From NCBI GenBank assembly GCA_000828975.1, contig AP014683.1, positions 2,065,700-2,129,699 of the forward strand: 64,000 nt of DNA. The letters run 5' to 3'. Below the pieces are notes generated by a model. It had not been told where the DNA came from, made no database searches, and was given only the letters and a program-made list of their open reading frames with translations. This document shows, in pieces, positions 10,060 through 56,037 of this stretch (its first letter is position 1; every line of letters starts with the position of its first letter). The position numbers were made by a program, and so were the translations under genes. Source of the DNA: Burkholderiales bacterium GJ-E10. Lineage in GTDB: Bacteria; Pseudomonadota; Gammaproteobacteria; Burkholderiales; Burkholderiaceae_F.

Positions 10060-10120
10060 TCGGGCATCCTTGTGAAAAACGCCTAACTACGCCGACCGAT
10101 GCGCAACATTGGGCATCCGT

Positions 10121-11666: not shown

Positions 11667-11668
11667 AT

Positions 11669-11698: not shown

Positions 11699-11714
11699 GC
11701 AAGTTGCATGAAAT

Positions 11715-12343: not shown

Positions 12344-12392
12344 GTGAACCTCCGTTGAACGCATTCCGGACACCATGCCCGGAAAGAACACC

Positions 12393-14854: not shown

Positions 14855-14863
14855 TGGCGCCCC

Positions 14864-15289: not shown

Positions 15290-15340
15290 GTTTTCACCTC
15301 ACAACGTTGAGCGTCCGCCTCAACAAACTCTTTCCCGCGA

Positions 15341-17134: not shown

Positions 17135-17135
17135 C

Positions 17136-23688: not shown

Positions 23689-23934
23689 CACGAGGTACCA
23701 CGGTGGGATACCCTTGGGTCGAATACGGCGAGACGATTGGTGCTGGCGCAACAGGCGTCGCCGAGATCGTCGCTCTTGCTTCGACCCCGTACCATGCCTC
23801 CGTCTTGTTCTATGACTACGCGGAGGTTGGCATGGCGTACGGCACCATGCCAAGCGGGACGGATTTTGTCGTTTCCGATTTCGGAAACCAAACCGTATCG
23901 CCCGCCGCCCCGCTCTATTCCAATGCCCCATTGA
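22609..23934 (+). CDS. IS630-family transposase (frame reads past the element's end)
   Basis: The product has an N-terminal helix-turn-helix region ([20 protein letters not shown]) and a DDE catalytic domain: [18 protein letters not shown] and [10 protein letters not shown] supply Asp, Asp and Glu. The element's own coding part ends near 23686 (about 359 residues), with no stop before the right inverted repeat. The frame therefore runs on to 23934, adding about 80 residues from the host gene. Activity of the fused product is uncertain. Confidence 0.85.
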
Positions 23935-24299
23935 CCTACCCGTGCTCCGGGCTCACCGGCGTGCAGCGTGAGAATCTCATCGCCGAGGACATGCCGCCCT
24001 ACATCAACGGTTCTCCGGCGAAGAACGCGCCGGATTCCTGGGGAACGCCGATCGTGGTCGAGGCAAATGTTACGGATACCGTTCGTCTTACCTCGGTTTC
24101 CGTGACGGGGCCGAGTGGTGCCGTGGCCGTGAGTTTCTACGACTCGTCGGACGACCCGTACAGCTTTCTTATCCCATCCGAAGCGTTCGCCATTGCGAAC
24201 GCGCCGCTGGCAGCCACCACCACCTACAGCGTCGTCGCGAGCGGCACGATCAACGGCACGCCGTTCACTCGTTCTTTTTCGTTCACAACCGGCAATTGA
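23689..24299 (+). pseudogene. CAP-domain lipoprotein, C-terminal half after the IS630 insertion
   Basis: The frame resumes with [14 protein letters not shown], the conserved GE-containing segment of CAP domains, then [18 protein letters not shown] and a C-terminal immunoglobulin-like region (VTGPSGAVAVSF, TTTYSVVASG). Joining the two halves after removing the element and one TA copy leaves a one-base frame offset. So either the target had already drifted or a small indel accompanied insertion. The frame from 23703 is open to 24299. Confidence 0.75.
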
Positions 24300-31752: not shown

Positions 31753-33407
31753 TCCCCCTCCCCCTTGGCCGCGATCGCGCCGAACTTGCGTTCCGCATCC
31801 CGCGGATCGACCAGACCGAGAAGCACGACGTCGATGCAGTTGGCGAGCATCGACTTGTCGGAGCCGGGCCTTGCGCGGTGCCGCACCCGCGCAGCACCCG
31901 TGCCGACGTTGACGAAGTCGGCCATGAGATCTTCGGTGGCCACCACCACTTCGGCAACCGCGCGGCGGCCGATGACGCCATCGCCGCGGCAGCGATCGCA
32001 CCCCGGCCCCTTGATCCGCACCGCGGCGCAATCCCCCCAGGTCTTGAGCGCATCGCCAAGCCGCCCATGCGACAGATTTTTGTCGGCGGTGATCGGCTGA
32101 CTGCACTCCGGGCACAGGACCGGCACCAAGCGCTGCCCCACGAAACCCCGGATCCGATTCGGGTCGCAGATCACCCGCCGCGACAATTCCACCCGGTCCA
32201 TCTCCTCGAGCCGGTCGATCACGAGGTACGGGTCGTTCGTATGGATCGTGCTCCAGACCATGTGGCCGGTGAGTGCTGCCGCAAGCGCCGTGCGCGCCGT
32301 TTCCACCCCGCGCAGCTCGCCCACCAGGATGATGTTGGGATTCATCCGCAGGATCGTCCGCAGGCTCTCGGCGAACTTCGCGTCGTTTGCATCGGTCACC
32401 GGCAACTGCACCGCCCAATCCATGGGGTACTCGACCGGATCCTCGATCGTGATTTGCCGCGCTCCGGGGAAGATGCGCGCCTGATGCGCCATCAGGTCGA
32501 AGAGCGTCGTGTTCTTGCCGGAGCCGGTGGGGCCGCTGATCAACACGATGCCGTCAGGCATGCTTGCGAGCGTCTCGAGCTTTTCGATCTGCAGCGGCGT
32601 GTACCCGCGCGCATCGAGCGCGAGCGCCCCCTCCGGGCGCTTGGGCGTGGTGAAAACGAGGTCCGTCTTGCCGTTTTCGTCCAGGCCATGCGTGCCCCCG
32701 TACTGCAAGCGGGCCACCATGAAGCCGCCGCCGCGCTCGATCGGGTAGGCCGGGCCCCGGATGATCCGCACGCTGGATAGCCCGCTACCCGGAAGGCTCC
32801 CGCCCTCGATCTGCGCGGACTGGAATTCGTAGGGCCGGTACATCGCGTCCTTCACCGATGCCAGGCCGACACAGGCAGCCCGAATCAAGGCTTCGCCCTC
32901 GGAGCGGTTCATGGTTCGGATCGAAGAAAGATCATCCTTGACCCGCAACTGCACTTCGGCAAACTTCTCCCGGATCAAGACGTGTACATCCGAAGCACGT
33001 ACCTTCGCCGCCTCGGTCAGAAGTTGCCGCGCGGCCCGCAGCGTTCCGAGGCTTGCGTCCTCGTGGGACTCGTTCGTGTTGGCGACAGCCTGGTCGCGAT
33101 GGCCCGCGAGCTCGCGCGCCGATACGGTGGTCACGGCCGGACGCCTGCCGGTGCCGGATTGACGCACCAGCAGCCACGACAGAAGCGCTGGATGCCACTG
33201 GTACCGGTCGTCGACGACCACTTCCTCCCCGCCGTTGACGAGAACGGCATGCGGCCGGATGGAAGCCGGCAGATCGATTTCGAATCCAGCCTGGCCGCTG
33301 CACCCCGGTACGCCAAGCGCGGGTTCGGCGCGCGTCGCCGGCATGGCCACCGCGAACGAATCCGGCGCCTTTCCCAGGACGCGCTTGAAGATTTGACCGA
33401 TCTGCAC
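31749..33407 (-). CDS. pilQ: Thin-pilus assembly ATPase PilQ (GspE/PilB family)
   Basis: A 552-residue secretion ATPase: Walker A SGPTGSGKN near residue 297, Asp box, Walker B ILVGELRGVETA, His box, and a zinc-binding Cys set (CPECSQPI and CDRCRGD). It drives pilin polymerisation. The GTG at 33407 follows the pilO stop directly; a longer upstream frame is out of place with pilO. It is the typical GspE homologue of type IVb operons. Confidence 0.9.
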   Translation of the reverse strand: MQIGQIFKRVLGKAPDSFAVAMPATRAEPALGVPGCSGQAGFEIDLPASIRPHAVLVNGGEEVVVDDRYQWHPALLSWLLVRQSGTGRRPAVTTVSARELAGHRDQAVANTNESHEDASLGTLRAARQLLTEAAKVRASDVHVLIREKFAEVQLRVKDDLSSIRTMNRSEGEALIRAACVGLASVKDAMYRPYEFQSAQIEGGSLPGSGLSSVRIIRGPAYPIERGGGFMVARLQYGGTHGLDENGKTDLVFTTPKRPEGALALDARGYTPLQIEKLETLASMPDGIVLISGPTGSGKNTTLFDLMAHQARIFPGARQITIEDPVEYPMDWAVQLPVTDANDAKFAESLRTILRMNPNIILVGELRGVETARTALAAALTGHMVWSTIHTNDPYLVIDRLEEMDRVELSRRVICDPNRIRGFVGQRLVPVLCPECSQPITADKNLSHGRLGDALKTWGDCAAVRIKGPGCDRCRGDGVIGRRAVAEVVVATEDLMADFVNVGTGAARVRHRARPGSDKSMLANCIDVVLLGLVDPRDAERKFGAIAAKGEGE

Positions 33408-33408
33408 G

Positions 33409-34554
33409 TCAATGCCCTTTCGTGAAGAGCGTTCCGTCGACGATCCACCGGCTCTTTGCGAGCTGCGTGTGAACCCCTTGCACCCGGAAGCCATCGACAT
33501 GGAATGCGCCGGCGCCGTAGAACCACGGCGCCATCGGCAGATCGATCTCGACCGGCGAGCGGTCTACGCCGGGCGCGGCGGTGGACTGCTTGCCAATCGC
33601 CGCGGCGACACCCCAGCGCTGGGCCGCGCTCCACATCGCGCGCCGCGCCTGCTCCGGGCCCGAGAGCGCGATCGCCGGAACCGGGGTAACGGCCGCGCCG
33701 TCCTCGGATGCGACCGAGTGCTCTCCATCGAGGGTTTTTCCGGGAGCGGCGAGCGCGAGGCCACCCGCCCGCCGCCAGGAGGTATCGATGCGCGCCCTGC
33801 CGGATCCGAACGAGCAATCCCAGGAGTCCAGAATCCATCCGTTGCGCACGAGGTCCTGCCGGTCGTTCCAGAGCGCCTCGCATCGCGCCAGGGCTTCGCC
33901 TGGCGGCGGCTGCGCAACCCACGGCTGCACGACGCGCCGCTTCGCGGCCTTCATCGCCGCGAGCGCGCGCATGCGCGCCTGCGCGTCTCGATGCGCCTGC
34001 ACGAGCTCATAGGCGGCGACACCGGCGACCACCGCACCCGCGACGGCAATCAGCGCAAGGGGACTTTTCAGGCGAAATCCGCCCGCTGCCGGCCGCACGG
34101 GGATCGCGGCCCCGTTGAGACCGGCAACCGCCGAGGCGAGATCGTCGATCGTTGCCTCGACTTCCCCGCTCCACGATTCGATCGCCGCGTGGCGATCCAT
34201 CGCCTCCCGAATCTCCCCGGATCCGCCGACGAGGTCGCCATCGGGAAGGATCAGGCCGTCCCGTCCGACCGCCAGGTACCACCACCGATCCGGTCCGATC
34301 CGGTACGTCCCCCGCCACGGCGCGGCGCGCTCGGTGGCAATCGCTGCCGCAAGCGACACCGGTCGCGACACCTTCCCCGGCAAGGGCTCGCCAAACCCGA
34401 CCTGGCCCGCGTCGGCCCGCACCGCGACCCAGTTCCCATAGCGGCGCGCAAGCTCGCGGATGCGGTCCCTGGGCGGTATCTCGCCCAGGGAAATCCACGT
34501 GAGGCCCGCGATGAAACCGCGCTTTTGGCCGGGGATGTCGACAACTGCCGTCAC
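33409..34554 (-). CDS. pilO: Thin-pilus protein PilO
   Basis: A 381-residue protein with a cytoplasmic N-terminal domain (RYGNWVAVRADAGQVGFGE), a single membrane helix near residues 180-200 (LALIAVAGAVVAGVAAYELV) and a periplasmic C-terminal domain with conserved Cys (ARCEALW, SWDCSF). This is the PilO2/PilO layout of IncI-type pili. Here it follows pilP, with which it overlaps by four bases; in R64 the order is pilO then pilP. Confidence 0.82.
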   Translation of the reverse strand: MTAVVDIPGQKRGFIAGLTWISLGEIPPRDRIRELARRYGNWVAVRADAGQVGFGEPLPGKVSRPVSLAAAIATERAAPWRGTYRIGPDRWWYLAVGRDGLILPDGDLVGGSGEIREAMDRHAAIESWSGEVEATIDDLASAVAGLNGAAIPVRPAAGGFRLKSPLALIAVAGAVVAGVAAYELVQAHRDAQARMRALAAMKAAKRRVVQPWVAQPPPGEALARCEALWNDRQDLVRNGWILDSWDCSFGSGRARIDTSWRRAGGLALAAPGKTLDGEHSVASEDGAAVTPVPAIALSGPEQARRAMWSAAQRWGVAAAIGKQSTAAPGVDRSPVEIDLPMAPWFYGAGAFHVDGFRVQGVHTQLAKSRWIVDGTLFTKGH

Positions 34555-35007: not shown

Positions 35008-36660
35008 TCACAGCGTCCGGGCGGTGATCACCACCGCCATCACGGTGTCGGCGGTTTGCGAATCCACGCCGCCACCGAGCGCCGGGTTGTAGGGGCTGCC
35101 CACCCCGTTGTTCGTGATTTGCGCCGAGCGCTCGCGGTACCCGGTCAGAACCAGGGTTTGGCCCGGCTTGAGGGACGCCGACTGGCTGAAGGTCACCTCC
35201 TGCGTGTCCGGAACCTCGATGCTCGATCCGTTCGAGCTCACCGTCCGGATGCCCAGCAGGTCCGCGATGTTCATTTCGAGGTCCAGCACGACGTGGCCGT
35301 CCGCCACCCGGGGCAGAAACGTTCCGGTAAACCCGACCTGCACCTGCCCGGGCTGAAGGCTGGTTCCGGCCGCGGCGATCCCGGTGGCGAAGGTCTGGCT
35401 GTATGCGAGATACGAGATCGTTTGTCCGCGCGAGAGCGCCAGGACCTGGCCGTTCATCGTCACGCCCGAATCGGAATACAACTGCGTGACCTTGCCCAAG
35501 GTCGTCAGGGCCTGCACCGCGGGCGCCGTGCCGCTGAACGGGCCCGACAAGATCGACGCGCCGAGCGACATCGGTGTGGACGAACTGAGCAGGGTCGGCA
35601 CGCTCGCCCCGGTCACCGAATACGAGTTCTGCCCCTTGTTCGTCAGGGAGAAGTTGAGCCCGTAGTTGTCCTCGCGCGAGATCTTGACGTTGTAGATGTG
35701 GACATCGATCGCGACCTGGCGCCCGAGCTGCGCGCGTGCCTCCCGAACCCAGGCCGCAACCGCCTCGACCTGCGGGGGCGTTCCGGTAACGGTGACCATC
35801 CCGAGAGACCCATCGACCACCACGCGGGCGGTCCCGGCAATGCCCTGGACCATCTTCTGGATTCCGGCCCAGTAGTTGATGTTCGCCTGGACACCCATCC
35901 CCACCATGCCGCCCGCCGTGCCGGATCCGCCCATCGTTGCGGAGGACATCGAGGGCGAGGCCGTCGTGGCGCCCATCATTCCGCTTCCCATGGTTCCGCC
36001 CATTCCCATCCCGCCACCCGATCCCGTCCCCATGCCGCCGGTGGAGATGGATCCGGTCAGATAGCGCGTCGCGGCAAGCGCCGGCAGCGTGAACGTTCGC
36101 GACTCCCAGCTGTAGAAGGTCACCTGGCCATCCCGATACCGCCACCAGACGCCGGCGCGGCTTGCCACGACGTCGAGCAGCCCCGAGAGCGGGCCGACGT
36201 ACGAGATTTCTCCGAGCTGCCGATCGCCGACTGGGAGCGCGAACGCCTGGGCCTGTCCCCCGGGAAGCGGCGGCACGCCAGACGCCAAGGGCGATCCGGC
36301 GCCTGGGGCTCCGACCCCACCGGTAAGCGCGATGACGTCCACACGAACCGGAACCCGTGCCTGCGTTGCGATCCAGGTCGCCAACTCCTGCAGCGACCCG
36401 GCCGACTGCGTCTCCAGCACGACTCGCCGCTTGAGAATCGCCGGTTGGTCCTTCTGTACCGGTACCGGATCTCCCGTGAGCCAGGCCTCGGGATGCGCCA
36501 CGACGGCGGACGCCGAATGGGGCTGATCGGCATACGCCTCGGATGCCGACTTGTGGATGGAAGCCGCATCCTGATTGGCCTGCTCGACCCCGGCGCAACC
36601 GGCAATCGCGGCCAGGACCGCCGTCGCCGAAAAAATCCTCAACATCGGTCGAATCCTCAT
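35008..36660 (-). CDS. pilN: Outer-membrane secretin lipoprotein PilN
   Basis: A 550-residue secretin. The lipoprotein signal has a lipobox with Cys near residue 22 (AIAGC). Periplasmic N-domains follow, then a Met/Gly-rich linker around residues 205-260, and the secretin core VGFTGTFLPRVADGHVVLDLEMN. It forms the outer-membrane gate for the thin pilus. The stop lies 17 bases before pilP. Confidence 0.9.
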   Translation of the reverse strand: MRIRPMLRIFSATAVLAAIAGCAGVEQANQDAASIHKSASEAYADQPHSASAVVAHPEAWLTGDPVPVQKDQPAILKRRVVLETQSAGSLQELATWIATQARVPVRVDVIALTGGVGAPGAGSPLASGVPPLPGGQAQAFALPVGDRQLGEISYVGPLSGLLDVVASRAGVWWRYRDGQVTFYSWESRTFTLPALAATRYLTGSISTGGMGTGSGGGMGMGGTMGSGMMGATTASPSMSSATMGGSGTAGGMVGMGVQANINYWAGIQKMVQGIAGTARVVVDGSLGMVTVTGTPPQVEAVAAWVREARAQLGRQVAIDVHIYNVKISREDNYGLNFSLTNKGQNSYSVTGASVPTLLSSSTPMSLGASILSGPFSGTAPAVQALTTLGKVTQLYSDSGVTMNGQVLALSRGQTISYLAYSQTFATGIAAAGTSLQPGQVQVGFTGTFLPRVADGHVVLDLEMNIADLLGIRTVSSNGSSIEVPDTQEVTFSQSASLKPGQTLVLTGYRERSAQITNNGVGSPYNPALGGGVDSQTADTVMAVVITARTL

Positions 36661-39889: not shown

Positions 39890-40096
39890 CCTACGCCATA
39901 ATGATCGCGCGACAGCTGCGGGTGCTGCACTGCGGGAGCAAGGGTCGACTAATCCTAAACCGGACCTACAGCGTCGGAGGCTGCCCAGGTAGAGTCGACG
40001 GCGGAACCCGGCCAGAGGCGGTACTCACATGCTTTCCGAAGCCATCTTTCGAGTGGCTGCTCACCCCTGGAACCTGCCGGAGAGCCTATGAGTGCT

Positions 40097-40165
40097 GATC
40101 GGCCTGAACGGACATGGGCGCCGACGGGGCTTTGGGGCGGCAATGCGGCGGCAAGCTGCCGCTGA
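40097..40165 (+). repeat. Left inverted repeat of the copper island
   Basis: This 69-base sequence matches the reverse complement of 51477-51544 at about 64 positions, with one single-base gap. The pair bounds an 11.4-kb segment containing copCD and cus genes. The repeats could be ends of one transposon or two inverted copies of an IS fragment. No target duplication was found outside them. Confidence 0.7.
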
Positions 40166-40282
40166 GGGGCCGGGTGATCATGGCCCGATCCGCTCGCGAT
40201 GTATCAGTGGTACCGCGTGCCAGATTCCTGATGCCCATTGCTGAGGCCAAAGGGCGATCGCGTACCGCCCGAGTTGTCGCCG

Positions 40283-40420
40283 GCTTTACCACGAGTTCCT
40301 GCTCCGCAGCGGCATCCGCTATGTGCGCGAGGCCGTCTTCGCCGCGCGCAGCTTTACCGACATCGACGATCTCAACGCCCAGGTGGGAGCGTTCATCCCA
40401 TTGCTTGCGGTTCATGGTGG
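40283..40420 (+). pseudogene. IS21-like transposase (istA) fragment
   Basis: One frame reads YHEFLLRSGIRYVREAVFAA then RSFTDIDDLNAQ, resembling the segment preceding the Mu-type C-terminal domain of IS21-family IstA proteins as I recall them. It has no start and is not followed by istB. It is a short degenerate remnant; the family call is tentative. Confidence 0.4.
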
Positions 40421-40693
40421 TGGGACGGCCCGCCAAAGCGAGCGACACGGCCAACGCGAGGGGCGCCGGTCAAACGACGAGCGGAATCCCGGTCCGGGCA
40501 CAGAGGCTGCGACAATTTGTCGCACCTCGCGCCCCAACCGTCCTCGATACCATTCGCGCATGGACGCCTCGGCTATCGACCGTTTGCGCGCTGCTGCACT
40601 GGTAGTCTCGCCGCGCTCCTGTCTCTTCCTGCCACGCAACCGCTGGTCGGTCCCAAGTCCGGCGTGGCAAGGCCCTTATAGGAAATTGAAGCC

Positions 40694-41056
40694 ATGCGTG
40701 ATCCGTTAGCGCTTGCCAGCCTGGCTCCGCTTTTATGCGCCGCGTCGGTCGCGCAGGCACACGCCATGTTGGACCACGCGAGTCCTCGCGTCGGCAGCAC
40801 GATTGCCGGTGCACCGGCAGAACTGTCGCTGTGGTTCACACAGGAGATCGAACCGGTTTTCAGCAGGATCGAGGTCCGCGATGCAAACGGCTCGCGTGTC
40901 GATGACGGCGATGTGCGCCCGGATGCTTCGGATCCGACGGAGCTGCACATCGCGTTGAAGCCGCTGCCGCGGGGTACCTACGAGGTCCGTTGGCAGGTTC
41001 TGTCCGTCGATACGCACACGACCGAGGGACGCTTCCGCTTCAGCGTGGACAAGTAG
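40694..41056 (+). CDS. copC: Copper-binding periplasmic protein CopC
   Basis: A 120-residue protein with a signal peptide ending at VAQAHA, so the mature protein starts with the conserved N-terminal His. Downstream HASP, a central Asp-rich loop and DTHTTEG supply the Cu(II) site residues. The Met-rich Cu(I) site of longer CopC proteins is not present, so this is the Cu(II)-only type. It precedes copD and works with it in copper handling. Confidence 0.92.
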   Translation: MRDPLALASLAPLLCAASVAQAHAMLDHASPRVGSTIAGAPAELSLWFTQEIEPVFSRIEVRDANGSRVDDGDVRPDASDPTELHIALKPLPRGTYEVRWQVLSVDTHTTEGRFRFSVDK

Positions 41057-41094
41057 CGCCGGGAACGGCTTGGAAGCGGAACGTGCCAGAGTCG

Positions 41095-42075
41095 ATGCTG
41101 AATTTCCCGCTGATCGGCGCGCGCGCCGTCCACTTCGCGTCGACGGTCTCGTTGGCGGGTATCGTCATTTTCTTGCTCTTCGTCGGCGAGCCTGCCCTTC
41201 GCCTCAGCTCCAACCGGGAGGCGCCGGGTGCCGCCGCGTTTCGCGGGCGTTTATCGCGAATTGCTTGGTTCAGCCTCGCCATCAGCGTCCTTTCCGGTGC
41301 GGCTTGGCTTTGGCTTTTGGCCGCCGAGATCACGGGATCCTCGCTGATCCGCGTGATCTCCGACGGCACCGTGGCGACCTTGCTGACTCGTACCCGGTTC
41401 GGACACGATTGGGAGGCGCGCCTGGTAATGGCCGGCTTTCTGGCTGCCGCGCTGACTCGGTTCAGGCGTGAAACGGGGTGGTCTTTGCCGCAAGCAGTGT
41501 TCGCAACGGCGCTGGCCGTACTTTTCCTGGGCTCGTTGGTGTGGTCTGGGCACGGCGGCGCGACACCGGGGGTGCGGGGCGACGTGCATATCGCCGCCGA
41601 CATGCTGCACCTCGTCTCCGCGGGGGCATGGGTCGGCGGGTTGCTGCCGCTCGCGCTTTTTTTCTCGGCGGCGCTGCGAACACCGGGCCAGGACTGGGCG
41701 ATTATTGCGCGCGATGCCACGATGCGATTTTCGACGCTCGGTGTCGCGTCCGTCGGCACGCTGGTCACCACCGGCCTATTCAACACCTGGGTTCTGGTCG
41801 GCACAATGCCGCGGCTTCTTGGCACCCTTTATGGACGACTGCTACTGCTCAAGGTGGCGGCGTTCCTGGTCATGCTCGCGCTCGCCGCATTCAACCGCAT
41901 GTACTTGACGCCACGCCTTATCGAGGCCAATCAGAGCGGGCAGCGCCGCGGCGTGGAAGCCCTGCGCCAGCTTAGGCGCCATAGTCTGATCGAGATGGGC
42001 CTGGGCCTCGCGGTCCTGGTCCTCGTCGGTGCGCTCGGAACCATATCCCCGATGCAGGTCATGGACAGCTCGTAG
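41095..42075 (+). CDS. copD: Copper-resistance inner-membrane protein CopD
   Basis: A 326-residue protein with about eight membrane helices and the CopD pattern, including HIAADMLHLVSAGAWVGGLL and the final segment GLGLAVLVLVGALGT. It is thought to move copper from CopC across the inner membrane. The ATG at 41095 lies 38 bases after copC. An alternative in-frame start upstream is present. The gene is followed by the convergent outer-membrane protein gene. Confidence 0.9.
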   Translation: MLNFPLIGARAVHFASTVSLAGIVIFLLFVGEPALRLSSNREAPGAAAFRGRLSRIAWFSLAISVLSGAAWLWLLAAEITGSSLIRVISDGTVATLLTRTRFGHDWEARLVMAGFLAAALTRFRRETGWSLPQAVFATALAVLFLGSLVWSGHGGATPGVRGDVHIAADMLHLVSAGAWVGGLLPLALFFSAALRTPGQDWAIIARDATMRFSTLGVASVGTLVTTGLFNTWVLVGTMPRLLGTLYGRLLLLKVAAFLVMLALAAFNRMYLTPRLIEANQSGQRRGVEALRQLRRHSLIEMGLGLAVLVLVGALGTISPMQVMDSS

Positions 42076-42157
42076 CGGCCTCCATTTGATACTGGATGGG
42101 TCGTGGCTGCCCTGCCTCGGAAAGGGAAGGACTCCGCGATGAAGGTACGAATCCTGG

Positions 42158-43087
42158 TCATTGCTGCCACCACTCGGAAATGGGCCGGCCGATACCGCCC
42201 GGGAACAGATCGTCGAGGTAGAAGTGAAGCTGCGCCACCCACCCCAACCCGTGTCCCGTCGCCCTGGTCGCTGGAACGACCGCTTCCATGCCGACCTGGA
42301 ACGTCTGGCCGCTCCAGATGATCCCGGGTTGAATCGTCCCGATCGCCTGGCTGCTCGGAACGCGATTGATCGGGGCCGTGTATGCAACCTCGACAAGCGG
42401 AATGATCTGGCTGAACGGTCGGCGCAATCCGACGTCCCTCACGCAGCATTCGAGATACGGCAGGCTGTACTCGAGGGCGAATCCGTAATTGACGCTGTCC
42501 GGGTTCGGCATGCCGGCGCTCTCGGCTCTGGTCGGGAAACTGAAGCCGAGGTTGCCCGTAACGGCAAACGGGCGCAGGTACCAGACGGAATCGGGCAGGT
42601 CGCCGAAGCCCTTCCCGAAGTCGAATACCGGGGACAGCGTCGTGAAATCGGGCGCTCCTAACGCTTGGACGCGACCGGTGTTCGCCCATGTCGCATTGAG
42701 GCCGACGAGACCGATGCTTTCCCGCGGTTCGTCGACGAAGAACTGGTATTGCACGCCCGTCTGCAGCGCGCCCCATCCCTTGGCGACCGCTCCGCCTTCG
42801 GGGAGCACGCGCTCCCACTGCTCGCCAATCGTCATGCCGAGATCGGGCGTGATCCGCTTCGACAAGTCGAAACCGAGGTCGGTTTCCCGCGACCCATCCG
42901 CGGCCGGGGGGTTGCCGGTAACCGTCGGCAACGACATTTCGTCGGCAACGAACGGGTCGTCGGTCAGGATCGTTGCCGGGAAAAAGCGTTGGCCGGCAAA
43001 TCCGTGCGCGAACGCCGGGAGTACCAGTACCGGGGAAACGACGGCGATCATGGCAAGCGCGCTTGCGCACCAACGGTTTTGCTTCAT
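42158..43087 (-). CDS. Predicted outer-membrane beta-barrel protein in the copper island
   Basis: A 309-residue protein with a signal peptide ending near AFAHGFAG and alternating hydrophobic beta-strands ending in a Trp residue (SEWWQQ). Two adjacent Cys (LECCVRD) occur mid-protein. It resembles uncharacterised secreted proteins found near copper genes. It may be an outer-membrane transporter or porin for metal export; this is unproven. It is convergent to copD and lies directly downstream of an IS4 remnant. Confidence 0.6.
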   Translation of the reverse strand: MKQNRWCASALAMIAVVSPVLVLPAFAHGFAGQRFFPATILTDDPFVADEMSLPTVTGNPPAADGSRETDLGFDLSKRITPDLGMTIGEQWERVLPEGGAVAKGWGALQTGVQYQFFVDEPRESIGLVGLNATWANTGRVQALGAPDFTTLSPVFDFGKGFGDLPDSVWYLRPFAVTGNLGFSFPTRAESAGMPNPDSVNYGFALEYSLPYLECCVRDVGLRRPFSQIIPLVEVAYTAPINRVPSSQAIGTIQPGIIWSGQTFQVGMEAVVPATRATGHGLGWVAQLHFYLDDLFPGGIGRPISEWWQQ

Positions 43088-43100
43088 GGTGGCATCCCAT

Positions 43101-43283
43101 TCAGCGGCGATGTCCCGCAGGCTCGCGGTAGGTCAACTGCGCGAAGGCCATGCAGAGGAACGGATCGATGCGGCGGAAGGTTCGGACGTTGGCATCGCCC
43201 TGGTATTTCTCGACCAACACGCCGAAGGTCTTCCACGGCGCGAATTCCATGATCTGGGCGAACACGAGTTTGCCGGCATACAT
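43101..43283 (-). pseudogene. IS4-family transposase remnant (N-terminal DUF4372 segment)
   Basis: A 60-residue frame reads GKLVFAQIMEFAPW and CMAFAQLTYRE, the start of IS4-type transposases carrying a DUF4372 domain, but it stops after REPAGHRR. The DDE domain is missing. It abuts the upstream side of the outer-membrane protein gene, so its outward promoter may drive that gene. Confidence 0.65.
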
Positions 43284-43513
43284 CGTCGGGCGCTCTGGAA
43301 CAAAACCCGGAAGCGTGCCGCCGAAGCAATTCGCCGTTCAAGTCGTGGACACCCCAAAATGCGTTTTTCTCTTTTCCGATCCACTGGTCACGATGTCTAT
43401 AACCGAAAACTTTCGGACAGCCCTGATTCGGGTTAAAAAAATTGCGGCGCAGCCCCCGGCGTTCTCCCATCGAGGCGGCAACGTTTTGCCGTCGGCTGCG
43501 ACAATTGTTCCGA

Positions 43514-43876
43514 TCATTCGGACGGGGCGATCCTGCTGATGACATAGTTCCCACTCGGTGCTTTCGCCAAGTCGAAATCCACCACGCCGCCCGCCTTGAA
43601 ACCCTTAAGCAGTGACTTATCCGCCACGCGGAAGCCCATGGTCATGCCGGGCCAGTGGAGGGCCTGGATGGGGCCGTGCGTGATATTGACCGTCCCCGCC
43701 TCGGCATCGATTCGGTTGATCTTGCCGTGGGCCATGAACGACTGGCCGGCGGGATCCCGATGCGCTTTACTGCCGGTCTCGTGGGCATCGCCCATGCCGG
43801 GCATGTTGTCCATGGCCGCATGGGCCGGCAGTGCCAGCGCACCGGCCAGGAGAATCGCGAGTTGCATGTGTTTCAT
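43514..43876 (-). CDS. cusF: Periplasmic copper chaperone CusF
   Basis: A 120-residue protein with a signal peptide (residues 1-19) and a small OB-fold. The copper site is recognisable: GKINRIDAEAGTVNITHGPI, then HWPGMTMGF supplying His, Trp and two Met. CusF passes Cu(I) or Ag(I) to the CusCBA pump. It lies downstream of cusC on the same strand, with a gap of about 330 bases. Confidence 0.92.
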   Translation of the reverse strand: MKHMQLAILLAGALALPAHAAMDNMPGMGDAHETGSKAHRDPAGQSFMAHGKINRIDAEAGTVNITHGPIQALHWPGMTMGFRVADKSLLKGFKAGGVVDFDLAKAPSGNYVISRIAPSE

Positions 43877-44207
43877 GAAAGTCCTTTCATCAAAATCAAC
43901 AAATTCCCGTGGCGCGGCAGCGCGACGCCACAACGCGTGGCGGGGCCAAACAACACTATTCCCTCCGATGGCGAGCCCCCTTTCTCGGCCGTGAGACCAT
44001 AGCTGCTCATCGCCAGCTTCTCCCCACTGGCTGCGCCATGCCTACGCCCGCCACATTTCGTTTGGGCGATGGGCAGTTTCTGCGCGCTGCATCCCAAGGC
44101 GTTCGATCCCGCTCTTCTTCTGCAGCAGTTTCCCACGCCGCACACCCTGGATACCGTGATCCATGCGGTACGGGCGCCGAGGTTTCGCGCAGACGATTCG
44201 CTCTGCG

Positions 44208-45575
44208 TCAAAGCCGTGCCGCGGTGAGCGCATCGACGTCGGCGGCGCGTCGGGCGGCGTCGAGGCGCAAGTCCAGGATCGTCTCCTGCGCCTGGATGTG
44301 CAGCCGTTCGATCCGTACCGGCTCGTCGCTCGGCGCCTCGTCCTGCGCAACGTCGGTGTGGGCGAAGGCGGCCATGCGCCGCAGACGGGGAAGCAGTTCG
44401 GTTTCATAGAGACCGATCCGGCGCATGTCGCCGTCGAGCAGCATCAGATCGGCGACGAGATCGGCGGCAATGCCGAGTCGCCGGCTGCGCAGTTGCGCCC
44501 GGGTCTGGCGCAGCCAGTCGCGGCTCTGGCGGATGGCTGCATCGATGCCCTGGTACGCCACGATCGGAAACATGATTCCGCCCCCCGGGTCCTGCGTGAC
44601 ACCGTCCAGGCTGGCGGCGAGGGAAAGGGTGAAGTCCGGGAGATAGTCCAGGCGGGCGCGCTCGATATCGAAACGGTCGGCGCGGATCTCGCGGCGCAAC
44701 GCGGCGAGATCCGGGTTGCGCCGCACCGCTTGCGCCAGGATCCGGTCCACGTCCCGCCGCCATGCCGGATGGCGCGGGAACCGATCGGGTACGCCCAGCG
44801 TCTGCCGTACGGGGCGGCCGAGAATCCGGTTGAGGTCCGCGCGGTCGGCGGGCAACCGGGCAGTCACGGAAACGATCCGGGCACGTAGTTCGGTTCGTTC
44901 ATCCTCGACCGACAGGGCGGTGGTCGCCGACGTCGCCCCCGTTTCGATGCGTGCCCGGGCGAAGGCGTCGAGTTCGTCGAGCAGGCGCTCGTCCTGGCGC
45001 AGGAGGCCAATCATCTCGGTGTCCGCGACCAGCTTGTACCAAGCGTCGAGCGTGTCCCGGCGCACGGCAAACTGCGCACGGCGGTAGTTCCAGCCTGCCG
45101 CATAGGCTCGTTGCAGAGCAGCGCGCGCCTGCGTGAGCGGTTTGATCGGCCACTCGATGGGTGCGCTGGACATGTTGGTGAGCTGGAGCATCGAGTTGGC
45201 GGCGCTCGTCGCGCCGTTCTGGAGGCCGATGGTCGCACCGAGCATCGGCACGGTCGGCTCGGTTCCCTGCTGCGGAATCTCCTCGATGGCGGCGCGCCAC
45301 TGCCAGTATGCCGCTTCGACATCGGGACTTTCGATCAGGGCCCGGGCGACCAGCTGCCGCGGTGTCGGTACGGCCGGCAGACGCGGAGGATGGCGCTGCT
45401 GCGGCGACGACGCGAACGGCCGGCCCGCTGCGTCGGCCTGCCGCCGCAGCGCCGCTTCTCCCTGCGGAGAGAACGTGCAGCCCGCCGTCGCGACGAGCGC
45501 GATCGCCGCGGCCGCCGCGGCAGGCACAAGCAGGCGGTGTCTGTCCTCGGTCCGGTTCAACGCTTTGGTCGTCAT
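44208..45575 (-). CDS. cusC: Outer-membrane efflux channel CusC (TolC family)
   Basis: A 455-residue outer-membrane factor. The lipoprotein signal has a lipobox with Cys near residue 33 (ATAGC), followed by the two-repeat helical barrel of TolC/OEP proteins. It forms the exit duct for the Cus pump. Its stop overlaps nothing; its start overlaps the cusA stop by four bases (ATGA). Confidence 0.88.
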   Translation of the reverse strand: MTTKALNRTEDRHRLLVPAAAAAAIALVATAGCTFSPQGEAALRRQADAAGRPFASSPQQRHPPRLPAVPTPRQLVARALIESPDVEAAYWQWRAAIEEIPQQGTEPTVPMLGATIGLQNGATSAANSMLQLTNMSSAPIEWPIKPLTQARAALQRAYAAGWNYRRAQFAVRRDTLDAWYKLVADTEMIGLLRQDERLLDELDAFARARIETGATSATTALSVEDERTELRARIVSVTARLPADRADLNRILGRPVRQTLGVPDRFPRHPAWRRDVDRILAQAVRRNPDLAALRREIRADRFDIERARLDYLPDFTLSLAASLDGVTQDPGGGIMFPIVAYQGIDAAIRQSRDWLRQTRAQLRSRRLGIAADLVADLMLLDGDMRRIGLYETELLPRLRRMAAFAHTDVAQDEAPSDEPVRIERLHIQAQETILDLRLDAARRAADVDALTAARL

Positions 45576-48500
45576 GCCTCATCTCCCGCGGCAACGTCCG
45601 GATTCACCCCGTCGGCAGCGGACGGCGCGAACCGGTTCCGCAGCGCGTAGCCCTTGACCATGTAGTAGAGCGTCGGCAGAACCAGCAACTCCAGCAGGAA
45701 ACTGGTGATCAGGCCGCAGATCATGGGTAGCGCGAGGTGGCGCATCACGTCCGCGCCCGAACCCTGCGCCCAGAGCAACGGCGCCAGGCCCATCAGTGCC
45801 GCGGAGACCGTCATGGTCTTCGGCCGGATGCGGCGGATGGTGCCGGTGTGCACCGCCTCCAGCAGGTCTGCGCGGCTATTCAGGCGGCCGCTCTCTTGCG
45901 CCTGCCGCAGGCTCACATCCAGATATACGAGCAGTATGAGACCCATCTCGGCACTGAGCCCCGCGACCGCGACGACGCCGACCCAGACCGCCACCGACAG
46001 CTCATAGTGCATGAACCACAGACCCCAGAAGGCGCCGACGAGTCCGAAGGGCACCGCCAACAGCACGCCCGCCGTGCTCACCGCGCTGCCCGTCGCCACA
46101 TACAGCAGCGCCACGATGCCCAGCAGTACCAGCGGCACCGCCACCGCAAGCCGGTGGTTGGCGGCGCGGATCTGCTCGAACTGGCCGATCCATTCATAGG
46201 TGTAGCCGGGCGGAAGCGCGACCGCCGTTGCGATCGCAGCGTCGGCGCGCCGCACGTAGCCGAGCAGGTCCGAAACCTGCGTCGTTACGTTGATGTAGTT
46301 GACCGTGCGGGTGTCGTAGCTGTCGATCTCGGGCGGACCGGCGTTGTAGCGGATGTCGGCGACCATGCCCAGCGGGATGCTTCCGCCGTTCGGCAGCATG
46401 AGTGGTACCTGGCGCAGTTCGTCGGGGTGGTCGCGCAGGTCGACCGGGTAGCGGAGGTTGATCGGGTAGCGTTCCACGCCGAGCACCATCGTGCTGATCC
46501 GGCTACCGCCGATGGCGGAGTCGATGACGCGCTGCACGTCGCCGACCGTCAGCCCATAGCGCGCCGCGACCTTGCGGTCCACCGTGATGTCCAGGTAGTA
46601 GCGGCCCAAGGCCTGGTTGGCGATGGCACTCAGGGTGCCGCGTACCGGCGTGATGGCGGCGGCGATGTCGTTGGAGAGCTTGCTCAGCACCGAAAGGCGC
46701 GGCCCGGTCACGCGGATTCCGATCAGCGTCTTGCTGCCGCTGTTGACCATGTTGGTCCGGTTGACGACCGGCGCGGTCCAGTAGACCGGCAGGCCGGGGA
46801 TGTTCAACGCTTCGCTCAAGCCCTCATGCCGGTTGCCGGAGGCGTCGCGATAGCCGTCTTCCAGTTCCTCGAGGCCGATGTGGCGTGTGTCCGGCCAGAA
46901 GGTGTCGCGGAACGGCCATTGCAACCACCGCGGCCAGCGCGCGTAAAAGCGCGGGATCGTGACGCTCGGCCATCGATCGCGCGGCTTCAGGTGCACGATG
47001 GTATCGAACATGCCGATGGGCGCGTCGTCCGTCGCGGTTTCCGCCCGCCCGGTCTGACCGAACACGCTCGCCACCTCGGGGAAGCGCTGGATGATCTTGT
47101 CGGTCTGCTGCAGGATCGTGCGGGCCTCGGTGATCCCCAACCCCGGGTAGGTCGTCGGCATGTACTCCAGGTCGCCCTCCCACAGCGGCGGGGTGAACTG
47201 CGTGCCGAGATGCGACAGCGGCCAGATGGTGGACAAGGCCAGTACCACGGCGACGGCAATCGTCGGCCAGGGGTGGGCGATGGCGAAACGGAATGCCAGG
47301 GCGAACACCGCCTGGAGCGCTCGATTGATTGGATTGCGCTCTTCCTGGACGATGCGCTGCGGAACGGCGAGCAGCAGCATCAGCACGGCGGTCATGATCG
47401 AGGCCGCCCCGCGATGCTGGGCCAGCAGCGCGGAGTGTCCGGCCAACACGAACACCGCAATGGCAGATGCCGTCGCCAGGACGGCAGCGAGCGAATAATG
47501 CACCCGGCGCGACCATTGCAAGGGGAACAGACTCGGGCTGATGAAGTTCATCATCAGCACCGGGATCAGCGTGATCGAAACCAGCGCCGCGGCGGCCATT
47601 GCGAAGGTGCTGGTCAGGGCGAGGGGGCTGAACATCTTCCCGCTTTCTCCTGGCAGCACGAAGACCGGCAGGAAGCTCACCGTAAGGATCAGCAGACTGA
47701 AGAAGAGGCTCGGCACCACTTCGGCGGCGGACTGCAGGATCAGGCTTGCGCGTTCCCGCGGGGCCTCGCCGCGTTGCACGCGCAGTTCGTCCGCGTTCAG
47801 ATACTGGTGGGCGTTTTCGACCGAGATGATGGCCGAATCGACCACCACTCCGATGGCGATGGCGATGCCGCTCAGGCTCATGATGTTGGCGCTCACGCCC
47901 ATCAGCTTGAGGATCGCGAGGCTGGCCAACATGCTCGTCGGGATCACGATGATGGCGATCAGGGCGCTGCGGCCGTGCAGCAGGAAGACGATGCAGACCA
48001 GCGCCACCACGATCATTTCTTCGGTTAACGTGTCGGAGAGCGTCGCAATCGCGCGGTCGATCAGCAGCGTGCGGTCGTATCCGGCCTCGACGAGCACGCC
48101 GGCCGGGAGGCTGGGTTCGATCTCGGCGATCTTTTTCTTGATGTTCCGGACGACTTGATAGGTGTTTCCCTGGAAGCGCACGACGGCGATGCCGCAGGCC
48201 GCCTCGCCCATGCCGCTCCACTCGCACAACCCCTGACGCTGCTCCCCGCCCAGCTGCAGCGTCGCCACGTCGCGCAGCAGGATCGGCGTTCCGTTCCGCT
48301 GTCGGCCGACCGGCACTTCGCCGATCTGGTGCAGGTTCTCGAAATACCCGCGGCTGCGCACGAGGTAGCTCAGTTCGCTGCGTTCGACGACCGAGCCGCC
48401 CACGTCGTTGTTCGAGTCGGCGATCGCCGCCCGGACCTGCCCGATCGACAGGCGATAGGCGCGAATCCGGTTCGGATCGACGATCACCTGGTATTCGCGC

Positions 48501-49213
48501 ACGAATCCTCCGAGGGGAGCGACCTCGGAGACTCCGGGTACGGACTCGAGTTCGAAGCGCACGAACCAGTCCTGCAGGCTGCGCAGCCCGCCGAGATCGA
48601 TGTCGGCCTTGGCCAGGGGTTTGCCGGTGAGCGGACACTTGCCGCCGCGCAAGAAGCCCCGCACCCGTACGAGTCGCGCGCGAACGGCGTCTTCCGTCGC
48701 GTTGGGCGAGGCGTACCATTTCCCGGTGGCGGGATCGTGCCAGATGCCACGCGGGTGATCGGGACAGTACCAGCCGGAAAGCAGAGCATATTGATATGCC
48801 CAGCCGACGCCGGTGGCGTCCGGGCCGAGTTGTGGCGTAACCCCGCGCGGCAACTGCGTGCTGGCGTAATTGAGATATTCGAGCACCCGGCTGCGTGCCC
48901 AGTACAGGTTCGTTCCCGGCTGGAAGGTCACGTGGATCAGCGAGAAATCGAACATGCTCTCGCCGCGGATCGATTGCACCTTCGGCACGTCCAGCAAGGC
49001 CGTTTCGAGCGGATAGGTCACCTGATCCTGTACCACGTCCGGCGGCTCGCCCATGTAGTTGGTCAGGACCAGCACCTGCGTGTCGGAGAGATCCGGCACG
49101 GCGTCGAGCTTGCTGTGGAACGTCAGCCACGCCGTCACGGCGATGATCGTCGCGGCAAGCATCAGAACCAGTCCGCGGTTCCTGATGGAAATCTCGATAA
49201 TTTTCCGGAGCAT
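45572..49213 (-). CDS. cusA: Heavy-metal RND efflux pump CusA with unusual insertions
   Basis: At 1213 residues it is longer than the usual 1040-1050. The HME-RND core is clear: FHSKLDAVPDLSDTQV near the start and GVVVDSAIISVENAHQY in the proton-relay helix. About 60 extra residues at 146-206 carry WYCPDHP and GGKCPLTGKPL, resembling the Cys motifs of heavy-metal-binding domains. A second extra stretch near residues 565-620 adds hydrophobic segments. It drives copper or silver out using proton motive force. Confidence 0.92.
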   Translation of the reverse strand: MLRKIIEISIRNRGLVLMLAATIIAVTAWLTFHSKLDAVPDLSDTQVLVLTNYMGEPPDVVQDQVTYPLETALLDVPKVQSIRGESMFDFSLIHVTFQPGTNLYWARSRVLEYLNYASTQLPRGVTPQLGPDATGVGWAYQYALLSGWYCPDHPRGIWHDPATGKWYASPNATEDAVRARLVRVRGFLRGGKCPLTGKPLAKADIDLGGLRSLQDWFVRFELESVPGVSEVAPLGGFVREYQVIVDPNRIRAYRLSIGQVRAAIADSNNDVGGSVVERSELSYLVRSRGYFENLHQIGEVPVGRQRNGTPILLRDVATLQLGGEQRQGLCEWSGMGEAACGIAVVRFQGNTYQVVRNIKKKIAEIEPSLPAGVLVEAGYDRTLLIDRAIATLSDTLTEEMIVVALVCIVFLLHGRSALIAIIVIPTSMLASLAILKLMGVSANIMSLSGIAIAIGVVVDSAIISVENAHQYLNADELRVQRGEAPRERASLILQSAAEVVPSLFFSLLILTVSFLPVFVLPGESGKMFSPLALTSTFAMAAAALVSITLIPVLMMNFISPSLFPLQWSRRVHYSLAAVLATASAIAVFVLAGHSALLAQHRGAASIMTAVLMLLLAVPQRIVQEERNPINRALQAVFALAFRFAIAHPWPTIAVAVVLALSTIWPLSHLGTQFTPPLWEGDLEYMPTTYPGLGITEARTILQQTDKIIQRFPEVASVFGQTGRAETATDDAPIGMFDTIVHLKPRDRWPSVTIPRFYARWPRWLQWPFRDTFWPDTRHIGLEELEDGYRDASGNRHEGLSEALNIPGLPVYWTAPVVNRTNMVNSGSKTLIGIRVTGPRLSVLSKLSNDIAAAITPVRGTLSAIANQALGRYYLDITVDRKVAARYGLTVGDVQRVIDSAIGGSRISTMVLGVERYPINLRYPVDLRDHPDELRQVPLMLPNGGSIPLGMVADIRYNAGPPEIDSYDTRTVNYINVTTQVSDLLGYVRRADAAIATAVALPPGYTYEWIGQFEQIRAANHRLAVAVPLVLLGIVALLYVATGSAVSTAGVLLAVPFGLVGAFWGLWFMHYELSVAVWVGVVAVAGLSAEMGLILLVYLDVSLRQAQESGRLNSRADLLEAVHTGTIRRIRPKTMTVSAALMGLAPLLWAQGSGADVMRHLALPMICGLITSFLLELLVLPTLYYMVKGYALRNRFAPSAADGVNPDVAAGDEA

Positions 49214-49234
49214 GGCAGTCTCGTGCGGCGCCGG

Positions 49235-50590
49235 TCAGTGGGCCGCCATCGGCGGCTTGGGCATTTTCATTCCCGCCATGGCACCGCCGGGCGCCTGCGC
49301 CCCGGCGGTGAACTTGGCGGCGACTTCGTTCATGTTCGACTCGACGTCGATCAGGAACTGGCCGCTGGTGACGACGCGATCCCCGGGCTGCAAGCCGGAG
49401 AGCACCTGAACCAGGTCGTCGCTGCCGGAGAGGCCCGTGCGCACCTCCCGGGGAGCGAATCGGCCCTTACCTTCGGCGAGCAGCGCCAGCTCGCCCGTGC
49501 CGGTATGGATGATCGCCGATGCCGGCGCCAGCAGGCTGCGCTCGAGCGGAGTGGTCAGGATGTCGACCAGCGCATACATTCCGGGGCGAAGAAATCCGTC
49601 GGAATTCTCTAGCCGGGCGCGTACCGTCACCGTGTGCGTCTGCGGATCTTCATCGGGGGCGATGAAGAAGATCCGGCCCTCCAGAACATGGCCCGGATCG
49701 GCCGCCAGATGCGCCTGCAGGACTTGGCCGAGGCGCAGCCAGCGCAGTTGATTGTCGTACACCTGGGCGTCCAGCCAGACATGGTTCAACTGATCGATCC
49801 GCATCACCGTTTCGCCGCCCTTGATGAACGACTGTTGCCGGACGCCGACGGCCGCCAGATATCCCGACACGGGGCTGAGAAAGGTCAGGTATTCCTGCGC
49901 CCTGCCGTCGGCGGCGATGCGGTCGAGCTGGCCGGTGCTCACACCGAGATGGACGAGGCGCATGCGGATGGACTGAAAGATCTGCCGCGCCTCGGCAAGC
50001 GCGTTCTCGTCGCGCGCCCGCGCGGCAAGCGCGACGTTGTGCGCCGCGGCAAGCATTTCCTCCTCTGCGGCGAGGAGCTGCGGGCTGTACAGGGTGAAGA
50101 GCGGATCGCCCTTCCGGATCGCCGTGCCGTCGGTGGTGGCATAGAGCGTCCCGATCCAGCCGCTCGCCCGCAGCGTCACCGCGGTCACGACCGGTGTCGC
50201 CTGCCGGACATAGCCGACCGTGTGCACGGTCTGGTGCAGGGTGCCGAAGCGAACGGTGCTCGTCTCGACCGCGAGGTTCTGTTCGATCGCCGGATCGATC
50301 GTCACGTCGCCCGGATTGCCGGCCGTGCTTCCCGCGGCGTACACCGGAACGAGTGCCATGCCCATGGCGCTGATTCCCGGTTTCGGCGAGATCGACGCCG
50401 GTCCCAACATCGGATCCCACCAGTAGAGAACCTTGCGTGTCGAGTCGACTGGGGGGGCGGCCATGGGAGCCTTTTGCGCTCCCATGCTTCGAATGGGATC
50501 TCTGCCGCCGTCGGCGTACCGTGCCCCGAGGACCGCGCCCAGGCCAGCGGCGAGGAGTACCAGGACGAATGTTCGGGTGATGCGCTTCAT
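49235..50590 (-). CDS. cusB: Membrane-fusion protein CusB
   Basis: A 451-residue periplasmic adaptor with an N-terminal membrane anchor. An early VLYWWDPMLGP and GMALVPVY match the heavy-metal-binding segment of CusB, and a hairpin-lipoyl-barrel arrangement follows. The C-terminus ends with Met and His (MAGMKMPKPPMAAH), useful for Cu(I). It links CusA to CusC and lies 21 bases before cusA. Confidence 0.9.
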   Translation of the reverse strand: MKRITRTFVLVLLAAGLGAVLGARYADGGRDPIRSMGAQKAPMAAPPVDSTRKVLYWWDPMLGPASISPKPGISAMGMALVPVYAAGSTAGNPGDVTIDPAIEQNLAVETSTVRFGTLHQTVHTVGYVRQATPVVTAVTLRASGWIGTLYATTDGTAIRKGDPLFTLYSPQLLAAEEEMLAAAHNVALAARARDENALAEARQIFQSIRMRLVHLGVSTGQLDRIAADGRAQEYLTFLSPVSGYLAAVGVRQQSFIKGGETVMRIDQLNHVWLDAQVYDNQLRWLRLGQVLQAHLAADPGHVLEGRIFFIAPDEDPQTHTVTVRARLENSDGFLRPGMYALVDILTTPLERSLLAPASAIIHTGTGELALLAEGKGRFAPREVRTGLSGSDDLVQVLSGLQPGDRVVTSGQFLIDVESNMNEVAAKFTAGAQAPGGAMAGMKMPKPPMAAH

Positions 50591-50728
50591 AGGAATCTCC
50601 GACCGGAATGCAATGAACTGCCGTCCGTTGGGCGCCCCCGATCAGTCCGGACGCCGGCGGCGGCGGATCACCGCGAGTGAATGCGCCGCTGCAGCGGCAG
50701 CGAGGATCCCACTCGCGAGGTCAGGAGA

Positions 50729-51157
50729 TCAAATGAGGAATACGCAGTGCAGGATGCTGTGGGGCGGAGGGATGGCTCGAATCGGCGGTGCGATGCCAGG
50801 CGAGACCGACCTCCGCGCAGCCGGCGTCTTCATGTCGGTCACGATATAGAGCAGCGCCGCGCCGGCGGCATGCGCCAGCGGGGGGTGCGAAGGCGCGCCC
50901 ACCGTCGTATGGCTCGCATCGTGTCCCGGGCAAACACAGGGAGCGCCCATGTCGCGCTTCAGGCAATGTGCACCCACCGCACCACGGGCCATCTGCGCAG
51001 CGGTCACGGACGCATTGCCGACGCCTGCGGCACAGGGGTTCGGCATGTTCGTGTGCACGCCCGTCCACACGCAGGCCGCCGCAGCCGATTGCGCATACAA
51101 CACGGCGACCATCGTGAGCAGTCCGATCATCTTGCGGAGCAGGCCTGAACGCTTCAT
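50729..51157 (-). CDS. Small secreted Cys-rich protein in the cus operon
   Basis: A 142-residue protein with a signal peptide ending near YAQSAAAA and a Cys-containing mature part (ACVWTG, NPCAAG, HCLKRD, PCVCPGHD). It is upstream of cusB on the same strand. The Cys and His content suggests metal binding. No family was recognised. Confidence 0.6.
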   Translation of the reverse strand: MKRSGLLRKMIGLLTMVAVLYAQSAAAACVWTGVHTNMPNPCAAGVGNASVTAAQMARGAVGAHCLKRDMGAPCVCPGHDASHTTVGAPSHPPLAHAAGAALLYIVTDMKTPAARRSVSPGIAPPIRAIPPPHSILHCVFLI

Positions 51158-51771
51158 GGCGGCGATTCTACCCCAGTGGTCGTTGGCGCTCCGTGACATG
51201 CCACAGATCCGGCGAGCTGGAGAACGGTCGCGGTCGTGCCCGTGGTTCGACCGCCCGGCGACAGGTTTGTCGGGGGACGCTGCGTTCCAACGGAATCGCT
51301 ACGCCGGCGGCAGCCTGCCCATCTGCTCCCGCAGCTTCTCCAAGGTCGCGCCGAAATCCGCCAGCCGGATGCCGTAGCAGTGCTCAACGGAGCCGAGGCG
51401 CTATGAGCGTTTGATGTGCCGAGGTGGGTTGGGGGCAACGGCAACAGACTGAAGCTGTGCGTGACCGCCAGATTCTTCGGCGGCGGCTTATCGCCGCATT
51501 GCCGCCCCAAAGCCCGTCGGCGCCCATGTCCGTTCAGGCCGATCTGCTGCCCCAGGGTGGCCGCGCCGGCCGACTGCTCCACCTCGCACACCCGCCGTTG
51601 AACCGACGCCGCACGGAGCGGCCGGACAGACAGGGTCGAGAGGTAACGTCGGCGGACCGGCGCTCCGACGTTCCGATCGTCCGCATCAGGGGTTTGATGC
51701 AACGCAGCAGATCCCCGCCACTATTACCGGAGCTGAAGGTAGCTGGTAGCTACCCGATACCAGCCACCGAG
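51158..51771. other. Gene-poor interval with the right inverted repeat of the copper island
   Basis: No intact gene is seen. The interval holds the right inverted repeat (51477-51544) and, on the minus strand, a short open stretch ending EKLREQMGRLPPA that looks like the tail of a larger lost protein. Near 51745-51754 the palindrome GGTAGCTACC with a following CGATACC resembles the element-wide operator. No cusR/copR-type regulator is present. Confidence 0.45.
51477..51544 (-). repeat. Right inverted repeat of the copper island
   Basis: This 68-base sequence is the inverted partner of 40097-40165, with four mismatches and one missing base. Together they enclose the copper genes. The near identity indicates a common origin and fairly recent arrival or gene conversion. 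Confidence 0.7.
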
Positions 51772-55356: not shown

Positions 55357-55440
55357 GACCTCCGCGGACTCGGCAGAAACCGTCGAAAGAGGTGCTCGGG
55401 ACACCAGGCCCGGGACCCCGGCAAGCAGACGCGCGACGCG

Positions 55441-55833
55441 GTGCGATCGCGCCAACCCGTAGGTGCGTTCGATGCCCGGGCCACACGTGAGATCACACAG
55501 GCGGCACCAACCGGCCCGAAGACGCCGCGACGCACCATCCGCCGCAGCGAGCTACGCCAGATCGTTCCGCTGGCGGACTCGACGATTTATGGGCTGGAAC
55601 GGCGTGGCGAGTTTCCGCAGCGATTTTTCCTCACCGCGCGCTGCGTGGTGTGGGACCTGGCCGAGGTCGAGGAATGGCTGCGGAGCCGGCGGCAGCCGGG
55701 CAGCAACGAGCTGGTAAAGAAGGCGCCGGTGCCGGATTTTCGGAAGCGTAAGAGCAAAACGCTCAGGGAGACAGGGTACCGAGTCGACGCGCGTCGCCCT
55801 GCCCCATTCCGACCTCTCCAGGCTCAAACCTGA
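55441..55833 (+). CDS. AlpA-like excisionase/regulator
   Basis: A product of about 130 residues with RRSELRQIVPLADSTIYGLE followed by FPQRFFLTARCVVWDLAEVEEWL, the AlpA/MerR-type winged helix of excisionases and prophage regulators. The GTG at 55441 is the best upstream start; the family is usually 70-90 residues, so the N-terminus is uncertain. It lies about 160 bases before the attachment site, where an excision factor would be expected. Confidence 0.75.
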   Translation: MRSRQPVGAFDARATREITQAAPTGPKTPRRTIRRSELRQIVPLADSTIYGLERRGEFPQRFFLTARCVVWDLAEVEEWLRSRRQPGSNELVKKAPVPDFRKRKSKTLRETGYRVDARRPAPFRPLQAQT

Positions 55834-55925
55834 ATTGGAAAAGACTGATCGACGGGGATAACCGGAATGGCGCATTGTGGCTTCACCGCAGAGCGCGAAG
55901 GCCGGTGCGATTCTAGCGGAGAAAA

Positions 55926-55989: not shown

Positions 55990-56037
55990 CGGACTGCAAA
56001 TCCGTGTACGCCGGTTCGATTCCGACCCCCGCCTCCA
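55990..56037 (+). other. attR: 3' part of tRNA-Cys (GCA)
   Basis: The sequence contains the anticodon arm CGGACTGCAAATCCG, with GCA at 55996-55998, the T-arm around GGTTCGATTCC, the acceptor strand CCCCGCC, discriminator T and CCA. The D-arm and 5' acceptor half are missing. This is the classic 3' tRNA duplicate left by element integration. An intact tRNA-Cys should lie at the other element end. Confidence 0.85.

Follow-up and report, generated by a model that had tools for sequence, protein, structure and literature searches.

The window analysed here, a 64,000-nucleotide stretch of the Burkholderiales bacterium GJ-E10 genome, carries a set of copper genes between two inverted repeats, with Pfam and NCBIfam matches confirming the copCD, cusF and cusCBA genes named in an earlier sequence-only reading. 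The features of the locus, in window coordinates, are as follows.

39999-40098, + strand: outer arm of the left repeat, X subtype, outside the duplicated unit; arm plus core 74-75% to the X-type repeats of loci L074 and L075 from other genomes
40094-40165, + strand: left inverted repeat, the core of a dispersed repeat; core starts with TCGGCC at 40099
40314-40381, + strand: IS21 istA scrap, 68 bp; 87-88% to six own-genome loci, the one inspected lying within a 553-aa istA-like ORF
40694-41056, + strand: copC (CopC, PF04234, E 2.4e-23)
41095-42075, + strand: copD (PF05425, E 3.1e-25; NF033808 over cut-off)
42158-43087, - strand: 309-aa ORF without a Pfam or NCBIfam match, intact in both copies of the unit and of the same length in copy B
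43101-43283, - strand: IS4-type transposase scrap (DUF4372 N-terminus, PF14294, E 1.9e-15)
43514-43876, - strand: cusF (PF11604, E 5.5e-25)
44208-45575, - strand: cusC-like outer-membrane factor (OEP, PF02321)
45572-49213, - strand: cusA RND pump (TIGR00914, 954 bits against a cut-off of 701)
49235-50590, - strand: cusB adaptor (PF16576, E 1.2e-55)
50729-51199, - strand: 156-aa ORF of no recognised family, its region also present, by sequence comparison, in chromosomal cus loci of the genus
51283-51370, - strand: valS 3' end, left over from the chromosomal tusA-cus-valS locus that supplied the cus half; 79-92% to this part of valS in the own genome and congeners
51477-51547, - strand: right inverted repeat; core starts with TCGGCC at 51542
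51543-51626, - strand: outer arm of the right repeat, Y subtype; arm plus core 82% over 150 bp to the left end of copy B
55408-55833, + strand: AlpA/excisionase-type gene, at the right-hand end of the ICE around the unit (PF05930, E 1e-12)
55990-56037, + strand: attR of the enclosing 152-kb ICE, repeating over 48 bp the 3' end of the intact tRNA-Cys

The inverted copies that the sequence-only reading had placed at 40097-40165 and 51477-51544 are real, with the left end (40094-40165) and the right end (51547-51477) aligning at 91.7% identity over 72 bp with one single-base gap, and no such inverted match expected in dinucleotide shuffles. The IS4- and IS21-like scraps of that reading were likewise recovered, and in agreement with it no regulator gene was found within the unit among the ORFs tested. 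Three further features were absent from that reading, namely a second copy of the unit, the dispersed repeat family and the surrounding ICE. Pfam and NCBIfam profiles revealed no transposase within the unit beyond these scraps. From the protein families we infer that CusCFBA exports periplasmic Cu(I) and that CopCD takes part in copper handling, as a set additional to the chromosomal cus locus.

From 44205 to ~51369 the unit is colinear, at 81-84% identity, with the chromosomal tusA-cusCBA-valS locus of the own genome and of the genomes G001 and G002, terminating in the last ~80 bp of valS. Since G001 (84%) resembles this cus half more than the chromosomal copy of the own genome does (81%), its source was probably another member of the genus.

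The own genome, searched as one 3.28-Mb contig (C1) with a 16S that on inspection is of Burkholderiales type, holds the whole 11.4-kb unit twice, with copy B at C1:195564-207018 being 98.8% identical to the window copy (copy A) and having the same repeat cores as ends. Genes called in the two copies have equal lengths, and the copper genes keep their left-right order; with the layout X-cop..cus-Y in A and Y-cop..cus-X in B, the cargo is thus opposite relative to the arms, which lends indirect support to the earlier suggestion that the unit inverts by recombination between its repeats. Between A and B, identity is 52% for the X arms and 68% for the Y arms, each taken without its core, against 89-98% for the cores (89% at the right end) and ~93-100% along the length of the cargo. 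The X arm of A is nearer the X arms of two MAGs, G005 of the same genus and G142 from elsewhere in the Burkholderiales (70-71%), than that of copy B (52%). Given the disparity between arms and cores, the arms look resident and old, and the core plus cargo shared and younger. Furthermore, the right core of B differs from that of A at 7 positions, some of which carry X-type core bases (CATCGGTGCCGGCGGGC), the kind of mixture that crossing over within it would produce.

Divergence between the two copies follows a U-shaped profile, with 33 differences per 500 bp (~7%) at the left end, none along a 4411-bp central stretch (45612-50022), and 18 per 500 bp to 5% at the right end. Synonymous divergence is 0.033 in copC and 0.026 in copD, with differences at 0 of 366 synonymous sites in cusC and 2 of 940 in cusA. 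We read this profile as suggesting an older duplication, the centre of which was lately homogenised by gene conversion; an assembly or polishing effect could be partly behind the identical 4.4-kb centre.

Copy A lies in a 152-kb island reaching from an intact tRNA-Cys (C1:1969603-1969676) to the 48-bp tRNA-end copy at the attR, with window positions 1-56037 forming its right part. A recombinase-like ORF (L137:3360-4565; integrase call by eye) follows the tRNA-Cys, and the island also encodes VirB4, a VirD4-type protein, VirB6 and AlpA, all four recognised by Pfam, together with a topoisomerase, RepA, HU and a ParA-type protein. It thus has the tRNA attL/attR, T4SS, coupling protein and integrase ORF (by eye) of an ICE. 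Multicopy matches had first pointed to a tRNA at 55781-55851, which proved wrong, the real att being the tRNA-Cys fragment at 55990. Elsewhere in the window, the ICE encodes a shufflon N-terminal domain protein (26315-27535), a T2SSE-type ATPase (31749-33500) and a secretin (35008-36660), and, judging by translations only, an IS630-like transposase ORF (22609-23934) appears to split a gene into pieces at 22150-22536 and 23703-24299.

Copy B sits between an acyltransferase gene and virB8 in another T4SS operon. A paralogue of this site at C1:1337355-1337377, carried by a paralogous ICE of the own genome, is empty, and the whole insertion that holds copy B measures ~12.0 kb (L025 ~5198-17206), arms included, exceeding the distance from core to core. 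A further paralogous site at C1:541907-550997 (L112:1908-10998) contains an unrelated 9.1-kb cusF-cusA-cusB-outer membrane factor cargo without these repeats, so that the repeats are not required for cargo at this T4SS site, and G002 has a ~0.8-kb insert there, which on inspection resembles a toxin-antitoxin pair. The T4SS intergenic site is an accessory-gene hotspot. No empty site was found for copy A. Neither A nor B shows a target duplication at its cores, and none is evident at the outer junctions of copy B; the cores are flanked by GATC/GATC in A, which is one palindrome, and by AAGTC/GACTT in B.

The ends of the unit belong to a dispersed repeat of ~200-220 bp, composed of an outer arm X or Y (~95 bp), an ~85-bp core with two predicted hairpins, and a tail. 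Five strong core copies occur in the own genome, a decayed one lying near C1:2031250. The sequence-only reading had named scattered host repeats unlinked to copper genes as the finding that would speak against it; this is not what the present genome shows, where four of the five strong copies are the ends of A and B, whilst the fifth, copy C, is a solo copy that matches the left end over its first ~219 bp and adjoins a mer operon within the same tRNA-Cys ICE as A. In the congener G005 the repeats are present elsewhere, around non-copper cargo, with ~10 copies, some of them 220-bp tandem units (L072), and G142 has three on a short contig. DNA searches found the repeat absent from 58 other relatives. 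When 399 genomes of the order, a sample in which G005 was not included, were scanned with a covariance model, strong matches came up in the own genome and G142 only, and weak ones, confined to short repeat pieces, in five other Burkholderiales genomes. An exact-pattern scan of 85k genomes confirmed only the G005 and G142 records, the remainder looking like chance. Rfam gave zero matches in three repeat-holding loci, comparison of a plasmid collection with the unit and repeats gave short RND matches and nothing more, and the viral contigs gave one exact match. Paired copies have arms outward, cores inward and cargo between, as at the loci below.

L074: pair Y..X; cargo, a diversity-generating retroelement (DGR)
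L072: inward-facing pair; cargo, an HI1420-type antitoxin with a Gp49-like partner
L073: inward-facing pair; cargo, an HI1420-type antitoxin
L075: inward-facing pair; cargo, a ParA gene
L100: right arm partial only; cargo, an Unstab antitoxin

Locus L102 (VapBC) has a single arm alone and breaks the pair rule. The DGR, at L074:1348-5050 (G005:C8:99347-103049), is complete within its inverted repeat pair, comprising a target gene (Lcl_C/PEP-CTERM), Avd, TR and RT, and is absent from the corresponding locus in G002 and G001. The target gene matches Lcl_C, the RT matches RVT_1 (E 2.5e-16) and the Avd matches bAvd (E 8e-9) with 36.4 bits, slightly under the 40-bit cut-off; 21 of the 22 differences between TR and VR, over 143 bp, fall at TR adenines. 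Outside the DGR cassette, L074:969-1216 is a separate ~245-bp palindrome-rich dispersed repeat with many copies, at ~82-87%, in the own genome and G001.

The unit is not a simple transposon, as argued by the missing transposase and target duplication, arms that differ where cores agree, the opposite orientation and the U-shaped divergence. The earlier view that it may be a transposon is upheld as far as mobility goes, the unit being duplicated with both ends at repeats, but not in the strict sense, there being no transposase or target duplication, and resident arms lying beyond the cores. The explanation we prefer, and to which we give about an even chance, is a transposase-less, repeat-bounded cargo cassette that is carried by ICEs and owes its spread and its flipping to recombination between inverted repeats already resident, a recombination step that we infer. 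Cargo would move between loci already holding an inverted repeat pair, with homologous recombination inside the cores bringing about cassette exchange; as the cores are mirror images, either cargo orientation could result, and the same recombination could invert the cargo in place. Gene conversion would then keep both long copies alike, and horizontal spread would come from the host ICEs rather than from the cassette. This is consistent with both 11.4-kb copies ending at cores, with the arms swapping sides relative to the cargo, and with the recurrence of inward-facing pairs around the DGR, the HI1420-type and Unstab antitoxins and the ParA gene. Against core exchange, a core of 66-72 bp offers little length for RecA to recombine efficiently, neither an intermediate between donor and recipient nor a variant with the cargo flipped in place was seen, and the empty site of copy B is without any repeat, indicating that at least the repeat pair of B came with or before the cargo.

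Alternatively, the unit may be a mobile insertion cassette in which the core serves as the terminal inverted repeat and a transposase from another locus acts on it in trans, although we consider this unlikely. TnXax1-type cassettes of Xanthomonas carry passengers including copper resistance, have ~92-bp inverted repeats and do not need an internal transposase (PMC5755412), a published precedent of 92-bp ends with a copper passenger operon that the present unit resembles in its long terminal inverted repeats, its passenger metal genes, its lack of an internal transposase and its two copies per genome. However, no target duplication accompanies the cores of A and B, the repeat arm again, rather than a random target, lies outside each end, the ends are a dispersed-repeat core with resident outer arms, and the right-end cores (89%) diverge more than the cargo. 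Furthermore, no related transposase, and no transposase-bearing element with the same ends, was found among the repeat loci examined in the own genome, G005 and G142, in a genus that is thinly sampled and has many draft assemblies. We take the cassette ends to be dissimilar to those of the Tn3 family.

The repeats may instead be att-, pdif- or attC-like sites for a putative recombinase, between which cargo modules shuffle and invert, an explanation that seems to us improbable. Such a system would fit the pairs that face inward around varied cargo in which toxin-antitoxin genes abound, the conserved core hairpins, the opposite orientations and the arm plus core layout, and would resemble the plasmid dif (pdif) modules of Acinetobacter, where metal resistance and toxin-antitoxin cargo lies between inverted 28-bp XerCD sites (PMC6449649). 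In contrast to those, the sites here combine an ~85-bp core with ~95-bp arms, greatly exceed the 28-bp dif in length and vary more, and no dif-like XerC/XerD motif is evident by eye in the core alignment. Similarity extends throughout the core, in which no short crossover site stands out, and no recombinase gene adjoins the pairs among those examined. The repeat pairs also differ, in being inverted, from the direct attC sites of an integron cassette array.

A plain segmental duplication through ICE-ICE recombination and IS activity, with the repeats as passive neighbours, would suit the position of A and B in ICE-like islands, the IS scraps inside the unit and the other cargo at paralogues of the copy B site, but is very improbable, given that homology ends at the repeat cores on both sides, that no other homology is reported between the flanks of A and B, and that the same repeats enclose other cargo elsewhere.

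Like ICE cargo at tRNA genes, the unit is enclosed in an island with tRNA-Cys attL/attR, a recombinase-like ORF and a T4SS; unlike ICE cargo regions, it is a unit inside the ICE and present in two different islands. The repeats are similar to REP/BIME-type intergenic repeats in being short, hairpin-bearing and partly tandem, but differ in numbering only five strong copies in the own genome, four of them paired around cargo. The unit works like TnXax1-type cassettes and dif modules, and by the features tested can be filed as neither. A bolder proposal, which we put forward as doubtful, is a new family of invertible, repeat-bounded Burkholderiales cassettes with long arm-core sites and a dedicated putative recombinase, shuttling metal resistance, toxin-antitoxin modules and a DGR between ICEs and chromosome.

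The locus points to a route by which copper resistance was lifted from a core chromosomal locus, the valS end being retained, to become a discrete unit in two mobile islands without a transposase of its own. Were the repeats genuine sites of exchange, toxin-antitoxin genes and a DGR would travel by this mechanism too, and cargo could flip or swap between ICEs.
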